A stretch of DNA of 36,388 nt from Candidatus Nanopelagicaceae bacterium (GTDB lineage: Bacteria > Actinomycetota > Actinomycetes > Nanopelagicales > Nanopelagicaceae), in the NCBI GenBank assembly GCA_018882745.1, contig VFFD01000006.1:1-36388 (forward strand), given 5' to 3'. The first letter of the stretch is position 1, and each line of letters opens with the position of its first letter. The position numbers and the translations under genes are program-made. The notes under the pieces are model-generated. The model saw only the letters and a program-made list of their open reading frames with translations, searched no databases and was not told where the DNA came from. Of this stretch, positions 6,612-15,364 are shown one piece after another.

Positions 6612-7253
6612 ATGGCGCTCGATTTTCCCGCTCGATATCCCGAATATCTCGTTGCTGCGATGGTAATCATTCTTGCTCCAGGACCCAGCGTTCTCTTCAT
6701 CATCGCTCGAGCAATTGCGTGGGGTCGGGCAACAGCCGTTGCAACTGCTGCGGGAAATGTAACGGGCGCTTTTACGCTCTCACTCATGGTTGCTTTTGGC
6801 CTTGGACCAATTCTGCAAAGAAGTGAGGCAGCGTTCATTGGCGTACAAGTACTTGGTGGTTTCTATTTGATCTATCTAGGTATCGATGCAATTCGTCATT
6901 CCAAAATCCACGCCGAAGATATGGTGAATCAAGGAGAGATTAAACCGTCCGCCCTTAGATCTGCCAGAGATGGTTTCTGGGTGGGTGCTCTCAATCCAAA
7001 GGGGCTGGTTTTCTTCGCAGCGATATTGCCGCAATTCTTAGATCGAGATTCATCCAGTGTTACTTCACAACTGGTTCTCATGGGTGCAACATTTGCAGTC
7101 TTGGCTTTCTTCTCTGATGGCTCGTGGGGATTGCTTGCGGGCACGGTTCGAGACTGGATGGCAACTTCTCCAGGGCGACTGGTGACGATGCGCAAGATTG
7201 GTGGGCTCGTCATGATCACATTGGGGATTTTCACTCTGATTTCAGCGGTCTAA
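6612..7253 (+). CDS. LysE/RhtB-family amino acid exporter
   Basis: This 213-residue inner-membrane protein has about six hydrophobic segments. The N-terminal family motif AAMVIILAPGPSVLFIIARA and the mid-protein motif GFWVGALNPKGLVFFAAILP are diagnostic of LysE/RhtB exporters, which expel amino acids or homoserine lactone-like compounds using the proton gradient. The ATG at 6612 gives a normal family N-terminus. It stands alone after a terminator, with the nuclease gene 38 bp downstream. The transported amino acid cannot be determined from sequence. No LysG-type regulator is adjacent. Confidence 0.92.
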   Translation: MALDFPARYPEYLVAAMVIILAPGPSVLFIIARAIAWGRATAVATAAGNVTGAFTLSLMVAFGLGPILQRSEAAFIGVQVLGGFYLIYLGIDAIRHSKIHAEDMVNQGEIKPSALRSARDGFWVGALNPKGLVFFAAILPQFLDRDSSSVTSQLVLMGATFAVLAFFSDGSWGLLAGTVRDWMATSPGRLVTMRKIGGLVMITLGIFTLISAV

Positions 7254-7291: not shown

Positions 7292-7966
7292 ATGAGTAAA
7301 GCCCGAGAATTCATTAGCCCTAGCGATCTGACCTTTTCATGGAATGGTTGCCATCGTTGTTTATGGCTTAATTACAACCATGGCTTGAAGGCTCCATCCT
7401 TTATGCCACTTGTCGGAGAACTCTCGGCGATGCAAGAAAATCACTTCAATGGCGCTATCTCTTCCCAACTCCATCCAGAGATTAAGGAAGGACGCGTTCT
7501 AGATCGTGGTGGCTGGGTGAAATCAGTACCTATTCCTTATAACGGCAAGCCATCTCCATACGCAATCCGCGGAAAATACGACTTACTTATGGAGTTCCAA
7601 GATGGAACTTTTGGAATTATTGACTGTAAGTTCCAAGGTAAAGATAACGATAAGAGTGATTTTTACGCTCCCCAACTTGAAGCCTATGCATACGCTCTAG
7701 AAAATCCAGTCTCAGGTGAAGCGCGAAAAGTATCAGTCATTGGTTTATTAGTCTGGTCCCCCAAAAAACCTATTGGTGATCCTCACTCTGGTTTCTCACT
7801 AGGGCTCAACAGCTCGTGGTTCCCCATCACTCGCAATCCAGATGGTCTACAGGAACGACTTCAGGATTTCATAGAAGTTATATCAGGCCCAACCCCCGTA
7901 AGAGATGCGGGATGTGAGACCTGTAAATTTATCTCCGAACGTCGTGAAATTTTTGGAGCCGAGTAA
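7292..7966 (+). CDS. PD-(D/E)XK nuclease-like protein with four cysteines (Cas4/RecB-like)
   Basis: This 224-residue protein has the layout of a PD-(D/E)XK nuclease. It shows Asp97 in GKYDLL, the DCK motif at 111-113 (in place of the usual ExK) and a QxxxY motif, Gln128-Tyr132. Two cysteines near the N-terminus (C20 and C23 in CHRC) and two near the C-terminus (C208 and C211 in CETC) bracket the domain, as in Cas4 and AddB-type nucleases that hold an Fe-S cluster. The longer open frame to 7124 lies inside lysE, so I take ATG 7292. No cas genes, helicase or CRISPR are nearby. A DNA repair role is inferred. Confidence 0.72.
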   Translation: MSKAREFISPSDLTFSWNGCHRCLWLNYNHGLKAPSFMPLVGELSAMQENHFNGAISSQLHPEIKEGRVLDRGGWVKSVPIPYNGKPSPYAIRGKYDLLMEFQDGTFGIIDCKFQGKDNDKSDFYAPQLEAYAYALENPVSGEARKVSVIGLLVWSPKKPIGDPHSGFSLGLNSSWFPITRNPDGLQERLQDFIEVISGPTPVRDAGCETCKFISERREIFGAE

Positions 7967-7968
7967 AA

Positions 7969-8739
7969 CTATTCGTCGTCGGAATCTTCATCCTCTTTTT
8001 TTCGACGCTTCTCTTCTAGCATTGCTTCCTTAGCCTGCGATGCATATATATCCACATACTCTTGTCCTGACATCTCCTGAAGTTTCTTCATAAGCAAATC
8101 TGTCGCTTTGCGGAGCTCTTCTGGATCATTTGATTTATCAGGGGTCGGGAAGTAGATCGGTTCACCAAAAACCATCTTTACTCGCATAATCTTTGGAATT
8201 ACTTTCCCCGTGGGTTGGATATCTGCTGTGTTAAACATCGCCACAGGAACTATCGGTGCGCCACTCTCCATAGCAAGACGAGCAACGCCTGTTCGACCGC
8301 GATAAAGCCGTCCATCAGGTGAGCGAGTTCCTTCGGGATAAATTCCCAGGCATCCGCCTTCGGCTAAAACGGAGAGACCCGTCAGTAGAGCAGCTTCACT
8401 TCGTGAGCCACCAGCACGATCCACAGCAACTTGGCCGAGAGCGATGAAGGTCAACTTCTTTGCCAGACCTTTGAGGCCAGGTGATGTGAAGTATTCGCTC
8501 TTTGCTAAGAAGGTTACTTTTCTTGGCACAACTAACGGCATAAAGATGGAGTCGCTAAATGAAAGATGATTTGAGGCGATGATGACCGGGCCCGACGAAG
8601 GAACATTTCGCAGCCCACGCACTTTCGGTCTAAAGAGCAAAGTGAGAACAGGAAGTAAGAAGGACTTCAGTAATCCATAAGCGACCTTGTCGCCCTGCAT
8701 CATTGATTGGACCTTGTTCCGCTTTCTGCGTAACGCCAT
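7969..8739 (-). CDS. plsC: 1-Acyl-sn-glycerol-3-phosphate acyltransferase
   Basis: This 256-residue membrane-associated enzyme transfers an acyl chain to lysophosphatidic acid, forming phosphatidic acid for phospholipid synthesis. The catalytic NHxxxxD motif is visible as NHLSFSD (His58, Asp63), and the glycerol-phosphate binding motif as YPEGTR (about 135-139). A hydrophobic stretch near residues 22-36 could anchor it to the membrane. The C-terminus ends in an unusual charged tail, a KRRKK cluster followed by EDEDSDDE. It ends only 2 bp from the convergent nuclease gene and diverges from the alpha/beta hydrolase gene. It corresponds in position to Rv2182c of the mycobacterial lipid block (from memory). 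Confidence 0.94.
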   Translation of the reverse strand: MALRRKRNKVQSMMQGDKVAYGLLKSFLLPVLTLLFRPKVRGLRNVPSSGPVIIASNHLSFSDSIFMPLVVPRKVTFLAKSEYFTSPGLKGLAKKLTFIALGQVAVDRAGGSRSEAALLTGLSVLAEGGCLGIYPEGTRSPDGRLYRGRTGVARLAMESGAPIVPVAMFNTADIQPTGKVIPKIMRVKMVFGEPIYFPTPDKSNDPEELRKATDLLMKKLQEMSGQEYVDIYASQAKEAMLEEKRRKKEDEDSDDE

Positions 8740-12339: not shown

Positions 12340-14127
12340 ATGACCGAATACTTTGCTCCCGCCCTAGAACCTGCCGCTACCGCAGGAAACCTCACCAATC
12401 TTGTCGCCGAACGCGCTTGGTTTGAACCAGAACGCATCATGGTCTCGCGACCATTAGGAGATGGTTGGCAACCCGTCACTGCACGTGAATTTGAATCTGA
12501 AATTAGAGCAACAGCAAAAGGTCTCATTGCCTCGGGAGTTCAGATCGGCGATCGCGTTGCGATTATGGCGCGCACTCGTTACGAATGGACGATATTGGAT
12601 TTTGCAATTTGGTTTGCAGGTGGCGTTTCAGTTCCCATTTACGAAACTTCGTCTGCAGAACAAGTTGATTGGATTCTCTCGGACTCAAGCGCTGTTGCAA
12701 TCATCGTCGAGACTCCACAACTCCGTGACACCGTCACTCCGATTCTTACTTCGAAGGTAAAAAATTGTTGGGTAATGACCGAAAATGTTCTTGCTCAACT
12801 CTCATATCTTGGTCGCGATATTTCTGATCAAGAGATTGATAATCGTCGCAATGCCCTCAATCCTGACTCGCTCGCGACGCTCATCTACACATCAGGTACA
12901 ACAGGAAAGCCAAAGGGCGTACAACTCACCCACGGTAACTTCCTATCTGAATGTGGCAATGTCGTCATGGGCGCAGCTGATTTATTCATGAAACCAGGAG
13001 GCTCAACTCTCCTCTTCCTTCCAGTGGCACACGTATTCGGACGCATGGTACAAATCGGTTCAATTCGCGCAGGTCTTCATCTCGCTCATTGCAGTGATGT
13101 CATTGGAAGACTCGCCGCAGACCTTGCATCGTTTAAACCAACATTCGTTCTTGCAGTACCTCGCATCTTTGAAAAGGTCTACAACGGCGCAGAAGCGAAA
13201 GCAGATGCCGCAGGTAAAGGCTCAATCTTCCGCACCGCAGCAAATGTGGCGATTGAGTACAGCAAAGCACTTGATGCTGGAAGCGTTTCATTGGCACTGA
13301 AGTTAAAGCATGGACTCTTCGACAAGCTTGTATATTCAAAGATTCGCCATGGTTTAGGTGGTCGCGTTGAGGCTGCTATTTCTGGAGGTGCGCCGCTCGG
13401 TGAACGCCTCGGCCACTTCTATCGTGGAGCGGGCGTACGTGTTCTTGAAGGCTATGGCTTAACTGAAACCACAGCAGGTGCGACTCTTAACCTGACTACA
13501 GCGCATAAAGTCGGATCAGTTGGTAAGCCAATTCCTGGCACTACGATCAAAATCGCAGAAGATGGTGAAGTTCTTATCAAGGGACCAATCGTGATGCGCG
13601 GTTACTGGCAGAACGATGCAGCCAACAAGGAAGTTTTCACCGATGATGGATATTTCCGTTCCGGTGACTTAGGAAAACTCGATGAGGAAGGCTACCTATA
13701 TATCGTCGGTAGAAAGAAAGAACTCATCGTTACATCAGGTGGTAAGAACGTCGCTCCTGCAGTACTTGAGGATCGCCTACGTGCTCATCCACTCGTCAGC
13801 CAGTGCATAGTTGTTGGCGATAATCAGCCTTACATCGCTGCCTTGGTAACAATCGACCCTGAAGCAATTAAGGGTTGGATTACGGCAAATAAGAAAGATG
13901 GTGCGACTCTCGCGGAGCTCACCAAGGATCCAGATCTCATCGCCGTTATCCAAACTGCAGTTGATGAAGCAAATAAGGCGGTCAGCCGTGCTGAGTCAAT
14001 TCGTAAGTTCACAATCTTGCCAGTCGATTTTACGATCGCTGGAGGTCATTTGACTGCGAAGCTTTCAGTCAAGCGTCACGTTGTACATAAAGAGTTCGCG
14101 GCAGAGATCGCCGAACTTTTTGCCTAA
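12340..14127 (+). CDS. fadD15: Long-chain acyl-CoA synthetase (FadD15-like)
   Basis: This 595-residue AMP-forming ligase activates fatty acids to acyl-CoA. The P-loop-like motif YTSGTTGKPKGVQLTHGN lies near residues 182-199. VLEGYGLTETTAGATLN, the hinge/ATP-binding YFRSGDLGKLDEEGYLYIVG and KELIVTSGGKNVAP follow in the right order. C-terminal KLSVKRHVVHKEF contains the late catalytic lysine region. The protein is of typical length for the actinobacterial FadD15 group. It diverges from the SRPBCC gene and its last codons overlap the proposed TTG start of the histidine kinase. Together with PlsC, FadA and FadB in this window it gives a pathway for recycling fatty acids. Confidence 0.94.
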   Translation: MTEYFAPALEPAATAGNLTNLVAERAWFEPERIMVSRPLGDGWQPVTAREFESEIRATAKGLIASGVQIGDRVAIMARTRYEWTILDFAIWFAGGVSVPIYETSSAEQVDWILSDSSAVAIIVETPQLRDTVTPILTSKVKNCWVMTENVLAQLSYLGRDISDQEIDNRRNALNPDSLATLIYTSGTTGKPKGVQLTHGNFLSECGNVVMGAADLFMKPGGSTLLFLPVAHVFGRMVQIGSIRAGLHLAHCSDVIGRLAADLASFKPTFVLAVPRIFEKVYNGAEAKADAAGKGSIFRTAANVAIEYSKALDAGSVSLALKLKHGLFDKLVYSKIRHGLGGRVEAAISGGAPLGERLGHFYRGAGVRVLEGYGLTETTAGATLNLTTAHKVGSVGKPIPGTTIKIAEDGEVLIKGPIVMRGYWQNDAANKEVFTDDGYFRSGDLGKLDEEGYLYIVGRKKELIVTSGGKNVAPAVLEDRLRAHPLVSQCIVVGDNQPYIAALVTIDPEAIKGWITANKKDGATLAELTKDPDLIAVIQTAVDEANKAVSRAESIRKFTILPVDFTIAGGHLTAKLSVKRHVVHKEFAAEIAELFA

Positions 14128-14740
14128 TAACAACGAACACTTCAAAGAATCGCGAATCCGCCAATCTGAGCCGTTTGATCGGCTGGGATTGGCGCGTCGC
14201 CTCCATGAGACGCTCGCTCAGAGCCTTGCCGTTATTGGATATGACTTAGATGCGCTGATTGGCGATGACGCATTAAGTCCTTCTCATCGCGCCGAACTCC
14301 GATCTATCCGGCTTAACGTCATGAGTGCGACTCAGAGCTTTAGGGATGAGATTTACCGTACTCGCCGATTTACACGTGAAGATCTCGAGAATGAGATCCA
14401 GGCCCTCCTTTCCAACATTAATACCGAAGTGAATCTCACATACCCGCAGTTAACAGAAGAGCGTGAAAATCTACTCAATCAAACGCTGATAGAAATCGCT
14501 CGAAATACCCATAAACACTCATCGGCGCGTTCGTTCTATGTGAAATACCAAATAACCCCTTCAGGTTTTCTCCTATTCGTGGGCGATGATGGAAATGGTG
14601 AAGTTCAACTCAAAACGAGAAATTTTGGCCTTCGCGGCATTGATGAAGTTCTCAAATTGATTTCTCAAGATTATCAATGTAAGGCAGATGAGACAGGAAC
14701 CCACTTTCAAATTACATTCCATCTAGAGAATTTAGATTAG
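14120..14740 (+). CDS. Cytosolic histidine kinase (HisKA_3/HATPase_c)
   Basis: This is a short kinase of about 206 residues with no membrane segment and no recognisable sensor domain. The dimerisation/phosphoacceptor helix reads LGLARRLHETLAQSLAVIGY, with the likely phospho-histidine in RLHET. The ATPase domain shows an N-box (IEIARNTHKHSSA), a G1 box (VGDDGNG) and a final GLRGIDEVLKLI, as in NarL-partner kinases. No ATG lies near the start. TTG at 14120, overlapping the fadD stop (14125-14127), is my choice by translational coupling, and TTG 14081 is the alternative. It is followed 6 bp later by its probable partner response regulator. What it senses is unknown, perhaps through a partner protein. 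Confidence 0.82.
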   Translation: MPNNNEHFKESRIRQSEPFDRLGLARRLHETLAQSLAVIGYDLDALIGDDALSPSHRAELRSIRLNVMSATQSFRDEIYRTRRFTREDLENEIQALLSNINTEVNLTYPQLTEERENLLNQTLIEIARNTHKHSSARSFYVKYQITPSGFLLFVGDDGNGEVQLKTRNFGLRGIDEVLKLISQDYQCKADETGTHFQITFHLENLD

Positions 14741-14746
14741 AGATTT

Positions 14747-15364
14747 ATGTCTCTACGAGTTCTCGTTGTTGATGATCACGCCATTGTGCGTGAAGGGTTA
14801 CGACGTCTCATCACAAAAGATTCAACCATTACCGTAGTCGGGGAAGCTGCATCAAAAAGAGAGGCCTTCGCTCAGATTTCTCATCACAATCCAGATGTGA
14901 TTGTCGTGGATCTTCACCTCCCTGATGGAAGTGGCCTCGAGGTCATAGCGTGGGCTCGATCGCTCTCTCAAAAGATTGGCATCGTTGTTCTCACGATGTC
15001 CAATCTTCCTGAGCATGTCTTGGCGTGTATGCAATCTGGAGCGAGTTCACATGTAGATAAGAGCGCACCCATTGGAGATGTTCTCCATGCCATTCGCGCC
15101 AGCGCTGAAAAGCCATTAACTTTTACGGCGCGCCGCATGACGGATGCAGTCATCGCTCGAAATAAAGAGACTGGGTTAACTCCCAGAGAACTTGAGATTC
15201 TTGAAAAACTTCCAACTGGAGATACCGTTCTTGAAATTGCGGCGCAGCTATTTGTCACCGAGTCCACTGTGAAAACTCATCTTTCCTCGGTTTACAAGAA
15301 ATTAGGTGCAACGAATCGAGTACAAGCCATAAACGCTGCGCGAAAGCTTGGTTTGCTTGCCTAG
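14747..15364 (+). CDS. NarL/FixJ-type response regulator
   Basis: This 205-residue regulator has an N-terminal receiver domain with the acidic pair Asp9-Asp10, phosphoacceptor Asp55 in VVDLHLPDG, Thr83 and Lys105. A C-terminal LuxR-type DNA-binding domain (about 142-200) reads LTPRELEILEKLPTGDTVLE and VTESTVKTHLSSVYKKLGAT. All residues for phosphorylation are present. It lies 6 bp after the kinase gene, so the two form a two-component pair co-transcribed with fadD or from a promoter inside it. Targets are not evident. Neighbouring lipid and cell-envelope genes are candidates. Confidence 0.93.
   Translation: MSLRVLVVDDHAIVREGLRRLITKDSTITVVGEAASKREAFAQISHHNPDVIVVDLHLPDGSGLEVIAWARSLSQKIGIVVLTMSNLPEHVLACMQSGASSHVDKSAPIGDVLHAIRASAEKPLTFTARRMTDAVIARNKETGLTPRELEILEKLPTGDTVLEIAAQLFVTESTVKTHLSSVYKKLGATNRVQAINAARKLGLLA

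Follow-up and report, generated by a model that had tools for sequence, protein, structure and literature searches.

A predicted stand-alone PD-(D/E)XK nuclease with a 2+2 cysteine frame, kept across the Nanopelagicaceae

The window analyzed here, the whole 36,388-nucleotide stretch of contig VFFD01000006.1 (assembly GCA_018882745.1, Candidatus Nanopelagicaceae bacterium), encodes a short protein with nuclease motifs and four cysteines, and raises the question of whether a lone protein of this kind is a Cas4 or a nuclease of another sort. The original prediction had suggested a stand-alone Fe-S nuclease for DNA repair in a reduced genome, with no CRISPR or helicase nearby. The surroundings agree with this description. 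The source genome is small (1,221,823 bases in 70 contigs, or 1.22 Mb; 93.4% complete), and no other PDDEXK_1 protein was detected in it. The window contained no CRISPR array, only one two-copy repeat whose copies are 73% alike, and no helicase was seen among its open reading frames, which were named by inspection. The protein itself, NUC in shorthand, is a single domain of 224 amino acids (aa). The gene and its two neighbors are as follows.

7292..7966, + strand: NUC gene; open reading frame with translation, PF12705 at 33.2 bits, model pLDDT of 91, Foldseek and VIA matches
6612..7253, + strand: LysE-type transporter (name by inspection), upstream neighbor, 38 bp before NUC
7969..8739, - strand: PlsC-type acyltransferase (name by inspection), downstream neighbor, convergent with NUC

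The frame runs uninterrupted from the ATG at 7292 to the stop at 7964-7966 (224 codons plus stop). A longer frame starting from a GTG at 7124 was considered and lacks support, as the start codons of most homologs align with 7292 or lie close to it. Elsewhere in the window, a short histidine-kinase-like frame with no visible sensor region (14081-14740) overlaps the end of an acyl-CoA synthetase-like frame and is followed by a LuxR-type response regulator (14747-15364), all named by inspection.

To place the protein, we compared its sequence with profile libraries, a check that had been proposed along with the original prediction. Pfam PF12705 (PDDEXK_1) matched residues 85-213 at 33.2 bits, above its cutoff of 22 (E = 6.7e-8), and reached E <= 1 in 24 of 27 diverse NUC members (best, 5.8e-11). 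In NCBIfam, NUC matched only the Cas4 model TIGR00372, below threshold at 12.8 bits versus a cutoff of 65 (best member, E = 9.1e-4). All PADLOC matches were likewise Cas4 models (E = 1.2e-4). PF01930 did not match the reference sequence and reached E <= 1 in only two of the 27 members (best E, 0.14). Among PHROGs, the best match (E = 0.012) was a family of unknown function, with exonucleases next. As a single query, the sequence found nothing better than E = 1.3 in the PDB; the NUC profile found 9iab (titled ACE1; E = 0.0036 over the DxK region), plus one chance match. Among the papers listed by a literature search, no title or abstract opening named NUC, and there was no match for ACE1, for Rv2119, or for MGME1, Cas4 and Exo5 together.

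The second check, fold prediction, gave a model of the PD-(D/E)XK type. AlphaFold2 with a 27-row alignment reached a mean pLDDT of 91.3 and a pTM of 0.87. In a Foldseek search of the PDB, the best match was the Cas4 protein SSO0001 (E = 4.8e-6; TM of 0.52 by query), followed by AdnA (2.3e-5), human Exo5 (3.3e-5), type I-C Cas4 (4.0e-5), MGME1 (1.3e-4), ACE1 (2.6e-4), and AddAB chain A (5.8e-4). VIA ranked a Cas4/Cas1 fusion highest (Z = 14.2; 180 residues at 4.0 Å) and then AdnA (13.2; 181 residues at 3.9 Å), MGME1 (12.5), 3l0a (12.2), SSO0001 (12.2; 165 residues at 3.5 Å), Exo5 (11.6), and Pcal_0546 (10.7). Other branches were also represented: RecE (11.2), LHK-Exo (11.1), a phage exonuclease and DinG (both 10.7), and lambda exonuclease (9.6). 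BFVD matches included phage endonucleases and viral Cas4-like proteins. Identity across the fold matches was 9 to 19%, and TM scores by query ranged from 0.27 to 0.52 for the 23 Foldseek matches with E below 0.001. Cas4 and AdnA thus head the ranking, yet the wider exonuclease fold also matches. That NUC has the PD-(D/E)XK nuclease fold with an intact site is, in our judgment, nearly certain.

Conservation was assessed on 109 distinct NUC sequences, drawn from part of the 179 genomes with NUC; partial sequences were included, and each count refers to the rows covering the position. The conserved residues, all on the + strand, are as follows.

7349..7360, +: C20-H-R-C23, the two N-terminal cysteines, where helix 21-30 begins (DSSP); C20 in 108/108
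7433..7438, +: Q48-E49, invariant (108/108 and 109/109), in helix 41-51 near the place of the motif-I His of RecB/Cas4 relatives
7580..7582, +: D97, motif II acid; 108/108
7622..7630, +: D111-C112-K113, motif III, a DxK whose central Cys is invariant; 107/107
7673..7687, +: Q128-L-E-A-Y132, QxxxY motif; Q128 and Y132 in 107/107
7913..7924, +: C208-E-T-C211, the two C-terminal cysteines, where helix 209-221 begins (DSSP); 105/105
7940..7942, +: R217, invariant (105/105), six residues past C211, at the place of the last Cys of the A2/A3 nucleases (see below)

The motifs read from the sequence at the outset (D97, D111-x-K113, and Q128xxxY132) are therefore present and invariant in the 107 to 108 sequences that cover them. 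In the model, D97 lies in the turn that joins strands 91-95 and 98-102, D111 to K113 in strand 107-114, and E49 in helix 41-51; as a helix acid, E49 presumably recalls lambda-exonuclease-type sites. The columns between 39 and 67 that are invariant or almost so include no motif-I His, and position 46 is variously A, D, N, E, S, Q, T, or K. The pattern C-x2-[CE] ... C-x2-C-x5-R was found in 104 of the 109 sequences; the remaining five are cut at contig ends. Position 23 is Cys in 103 of 108 sequences and Glu in five (L078, L079, L158, L159, and L162), all from genus g8 and 89 to 92% identical to one another. In this clade (CHRELW), the active site and the three remaining cysteines are intact; Cys23 is present in other g8 sequences.

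How does this frame compare with those of known relatives? In Cas4 proteins, a single cysteine stands near the N terminus and three stand near the C terminus (Cys32, Cys188, Cys191, and Cys197 in SSO0001, as described in PMC4176176 and PMC3466216), and the metal ligands given for SSO0001 are His62, Asp99, and Glu113 (PMC4176176). NUC shares with Cas4 (SSO0001, Pcal_0546, and solo-Cas4) the fold, the size, the D..[DE]xK..QxxxY order, an N-terminal Cys, and a C-terminal CxxC, but it has 2+2 cysteines instead of a C-terminal triplet, Asp111 instead of Glu113, no counterpart of His62, and a score below the TIGR00372 cutoff. The likeness to AdnA/AddB lies in the fold (see the AdnA match above) and in having cysteines at either end of the domain; those proteins carry a helicase part, whereas NUC is a single 224-aa domain with Arg217 at the last Cys place and an extra Cys23. 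A helicase partner of NUC might be encoded outside the window. Exo5 and MGME1 are DNA exonucleases that, like NUC, consist of one domain with this fold, but they are eukaryotic and share only 11 to 14% identity in VIA. Another RecB-like fold with a four-Cys site is the Eubacterium rectale DUF3799 protein (3l0a), in which Zn sits on the four-Cys frame, an assignment that its authors do not rule out as an artifact (PMC3466216). It differs from NUC in occurring in bacteria and phages and in having its cysteines arranged as in AddB/Cas4 (PMC3466216).

A further comparison comes from the canonical actinobacterial solo RecB-like nucleases of relatives, which we collected as two sets, A2 (9 rows) and A3 (5 rows), from loci L142 to L155. 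Both sets have 1+3 cysteines (CxxC-x5-C), an invariant His, and DYK in motif III. Like NUC, they are stand-alone PDDEXK_1 proteins with a DxK and a four-Cys pattern, from the same bacterial family; unlike NUC, they are about 250 to 280 aa long with 1+3 cysteines and the motif-I His, and none of the neighbor genes of the window was found within the flanks of their loci. When NUC was aligned with them over the full length in hhalign, without accuracy filtering, C20 came to stand opposite their N-terminal Cys and C208xxC211 opposite the CxxC. The probability was below 1%, which is not significant alone, and the register is anchored by the shared DxK. By spacing in this register, the last Cys of A2/A3 falls on R217; because of this register, one ligand position appears to have gone and a new cysteine, C23, to have arisen three residues past C20. 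Judged by its sequence, NUC is thus not the textbook Cas4/AddB "iron staple": it has 2+2 rather than 1+3 cysteines, and the motif-I His is gone. The earlier assignment of the cysteines to Cas4/AddB-like positions stands for three of the four, and it fails for the overall pattern. The Asp noted in place of Glu as the second acid is confirmed as Asp111 and does differ from Glu113 of Cas4, but, with DYK in both A2 and A3, it is an ordinary residue among RecB-like relatives.

Taken as a whole, these features lead us to favor, with moderate confidence, a stand-alone metal-dependent DNA nuclease like Cas4, AddB, AdnA, Exo5, and MGME1, with a rearranged four-ligand staple and a task in housekeeping repair. 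D97 and D111 would hold the catalytic divalent metal, K113 would activate water, and Q128/Y132 and probably E49 would complete the site. The substrate is likely DNA, and NUC would trim single-stranded DNA ends or flaps in housekeeping repair or recombination, without a fused helicase. A role in end processing during repair is plausible, at slightly under even chances. A four-ligand metal center made of C20/C23 and C208/C211 would tie the first long helix to the last, as a rearranged iron staple that lost one C-terminal ligand and gained a new one on the N-terminal helix. Conservation and alignment register make such a four-Cys center probable, and the model is compatible with it in one respect: C20 and C208 each lie one residue ahead of a helix (21-30 and 209-221). 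The putative staple need not be essential for catalysis, because Cas4 Pcal_0546 is active without its cluster; SSO0001 is not (PMC4176176).

We then asked how widely the gene is distributed. A single-sequence scan of contigs found 39 NUC loci, all at 58 to 96% identity, and NUC occurred in 48 of 100 near genomes, none of them outside the family (f1). The profile detected it in 179 of the 201 genomes searched from the order, which fall in 12 of 16 genera, and in 102 of the 108 genomes with completeness of >=90% and contamination of <=5%. Genomes usually have one copy, and a few have two or three matches. One second copy, in genome G049 (L088:1753-2439; 38% identical), adjoins a CPBP-like membrane protease and a subtilase-like gene (named by inspection), with neither LysE nor PlsC. 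Contigs titled "Clavibacter sp." or "Bifidobacterium breve" (L041, L060, L065, and L069) also carry NUC, at 58 to 79% identity; these titles are probably mislabelings, since the contigs carry the Nanopelagicaceae gene. Across a phylum sample of 396 genomes, the profile matched only the source genome and G387 (28.5 bits over 57 positions of a 1,055-aa frame, too long for NUC), and the single sequence matched the source genome and gave three weak partial matches, so nothing convincing was found outside the family in this sample. Other phyla may have unnamed nucleases with a comparable CxxC near the N terminus.

The neighborhood of NUC is kept as well. Among 31 loci picked for their flanks, LysE lay on the same strand less than 150 bp upstream in 26 and 1.1 to 1.3 kb upstream in three (L053, L054, and L085); it was not found near NUC in L074 and L088. 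PlsC was convergent with NUC, the frames 3 to 26 bp apart, in 30 of the 31, the exception being the paralog L088. Neither gene is regarded as a functional partner of NUC: LysE and PlsC adjoin each other without NUC in four g10 loci (L252, L256, L257, and L260), and LysE is more than 1 kb away in three of the NUC loci. The neighbors look metabolic rather than like repair genes. Given its broad presence in the family and the kept PlsC/LysE locus, NUC is a core gene of Nanopelagicaceae, which are freshwater acI actinobacteria, and has by and large been passed on vertically.

Against this background, the alternative readings can be weighed. NUC could be a true solo-Cas4, a Cas4 member that lost its CRISPR locus and retained ordinary Cas4 biochemistry, as the top rank of SSO0001 in Foldseek and the PADLOC Cas4 model would suggest. 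Solo-Cas4 proteins have been suggested to serve defense or repair in small, CRISPR-less genomes (PMC5704561), which makes them a neighboring case. We nevertheless consider this reading unlikely, as NUC does not show the sequence hallmarks of Cas4: its TIGR00372 score is far below the cutoff, PF01930 reached very few members, and neither the 1+3 cysteines nor the motif-I His is there. Even two canonical solo RecB-like proteins of the family, at 56.4 and 48.7 bits and still below 65, outscored NUC on TIGR00372. A defense or mobile-element nuclease acting against phages, instead of a housekeeping enzyme, is less probable still. Foreign DNA can be a target of RecB-like and Cas4-type nucleases, and the PADLOC matches, all to Cas4 models, would fit such a role. 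Set against this are the usual single copy, the presence in most genomes of the family, and the kept metabolic neighborhood. NUC had no match among 50,697 phage records and only two weak ones among 72,556 plasmid records, both in UvrD-helicase genes (E = 0.3 and 0.6), and the paralog L088 matched neither collection. Nor did the L088 query find a relative among viral contigs. One viral-contig candidate from the search with NUC (L093; 27% over query residues 56-160, in a 210-aa frame with the DCK) was not counted as a relative because it is without the Cys pairs. The dN/dS ratio was low (0.02 to 0.08) in the six of 36 genus pairs for which it could be computed, at high dS values of 1.3 to 2.6, the other 30 being saturated in dS. 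A search for cas1 gave no match in 37 genomes of the family, while the same search matched in four of 23 class relatives.

Two further alternatives concern the chemistry of the protein. The cysteines might be zinc ligands, or be linked by disulfides or a structural bond of another type, with a purely structural task and no Fe-S cluster. The natural Cys23-to-Glu change in one clade would suit this reading and speaks, on sequence grounds, against a strictly four-Cys Fe-S cluster; the VIA match 3l0a offers a possibly artifactual precedent for Zn on such a frame. The other four-Cys homologs with a reported metal (SSO0001, SSO1391, Pcal_0546, and AddB) hold Fe-S instead (PMC3466216; PMC4176176). 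We therefore lean modestly toward Fe-S rather than Zn for the NUC center and regard the zinc or structural reading as a minority option, though the most credible of the alternatives. Least probable of all is a catalytically altered PD-(D/E)XK protein that acts on RNA or serves as a binding subunit. It would account for the missing motif-I His and the unusual invariant Cys112 inside the DCK, and it conflicts with the complete invariance of the motif II and III acids, the Lys, and the QxxxY. The housekeeping DNA nuclease with a rearranged staple thus remains our preferred reading.

NUC-less genomes of the order showed a consistent pattern. At E below 1e-141, A3 was found in nine of 202 genomes, from genera g6, g10, g13, and g15 (next score, 93.6 versus 472.8 bits). 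None of the nine has NUC, and A3 is absent at that threshold from all 179 genomes with NUC (Fisher's P = 4e-10, with genomes that are not independent). The six high-quality genomes without NUC (G028, G032, G042, G053, G057, and G569) all carry A3. Thirteen of 201 genomes had neither, and none of these meets the 90/5 quality bar. The NUC profile found nothing in 11 PlsC loci of NUC-less genomes; in four g10 genomes, where LysE and PlsC adjoin, NUC appears to have been cleanly inserted or removed. An aconitase tree (25 rows, with 13 of its 22 inner branches left open) requires two changes for the NUC-less rows, so the split may reflect one or two displacements. The A3 loci L143, L145, L147, L149, and L151 occurred, in the order's sample, only in the four NUC-less genera. 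NUC may thus take the place of a canonical solo nuclease with 1+3 cysteines, which was itself found only in NUC-less genera.

A different absence marks g1, the genus of the window. In a six-frame search of 75 genomes, PF12705 matched in none of the 24 g1 genomes (G000 to G023), whereas it matched in 21 of 22 family genomes of other genera, the exception being G036 (g14). Since the same search also misses NUC in its own genome, this result means that g1 has no PDDEXK_1 protein canonical enough for a six-frame search. Among the matches listed, the frames were of AdnA/AdnB size (roughly 960 to 1,180 aa) or solo size (roughly 260 to 380 aa), besides pieces at contig ends. UvrD_C matches in G000 fell only in frames of 759 and 556 aa; for the other g1 genomes, match counts were used, with three or fewer matches in 23 of the 24 (G005 has five). 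On this sequence evidence, g1 seems to be without AdnAB, the actinobacterial machine for resection of double-strand breaks, and without canonical solo nucleases. NUC is the only protein of its class detected there and may be the last of its class left. It is not simply a substitute for AdnAB, since it co-occurs with AdnAB-sized proteins in other genera.

Joined together, these observations would make a longer history, which we regard as doubtful in its entirety. The iron staple would have been rearranged from 1+3 to 2+2, with an invariant Arg in place of a Cys and the motif-I His dropped. NUC would have displaced the canonical solo nuclease in Nanopelagicaceae and, after the loss of AdnAB in one genus, have become the only RecB-class nuclease there, so that double-strand break ends would be handled by a single-domain nuclease and separate helicases.

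Planktophila and Nanopelagicus, both genera of this family, are described as among the most ubiquitous and abundant in fresh water (PMC7527133). The 2+2 cysteine frame and its natural Cys-to-Glu variant would offer a natural experiment on rebuilding the Cas4/AddB metal staple. If g1 is truly without AdnAB and canonical solo RecB-like nucleases, how recombination starts in this genus becomes a testable question, for which NUC would be an obvious candidate.
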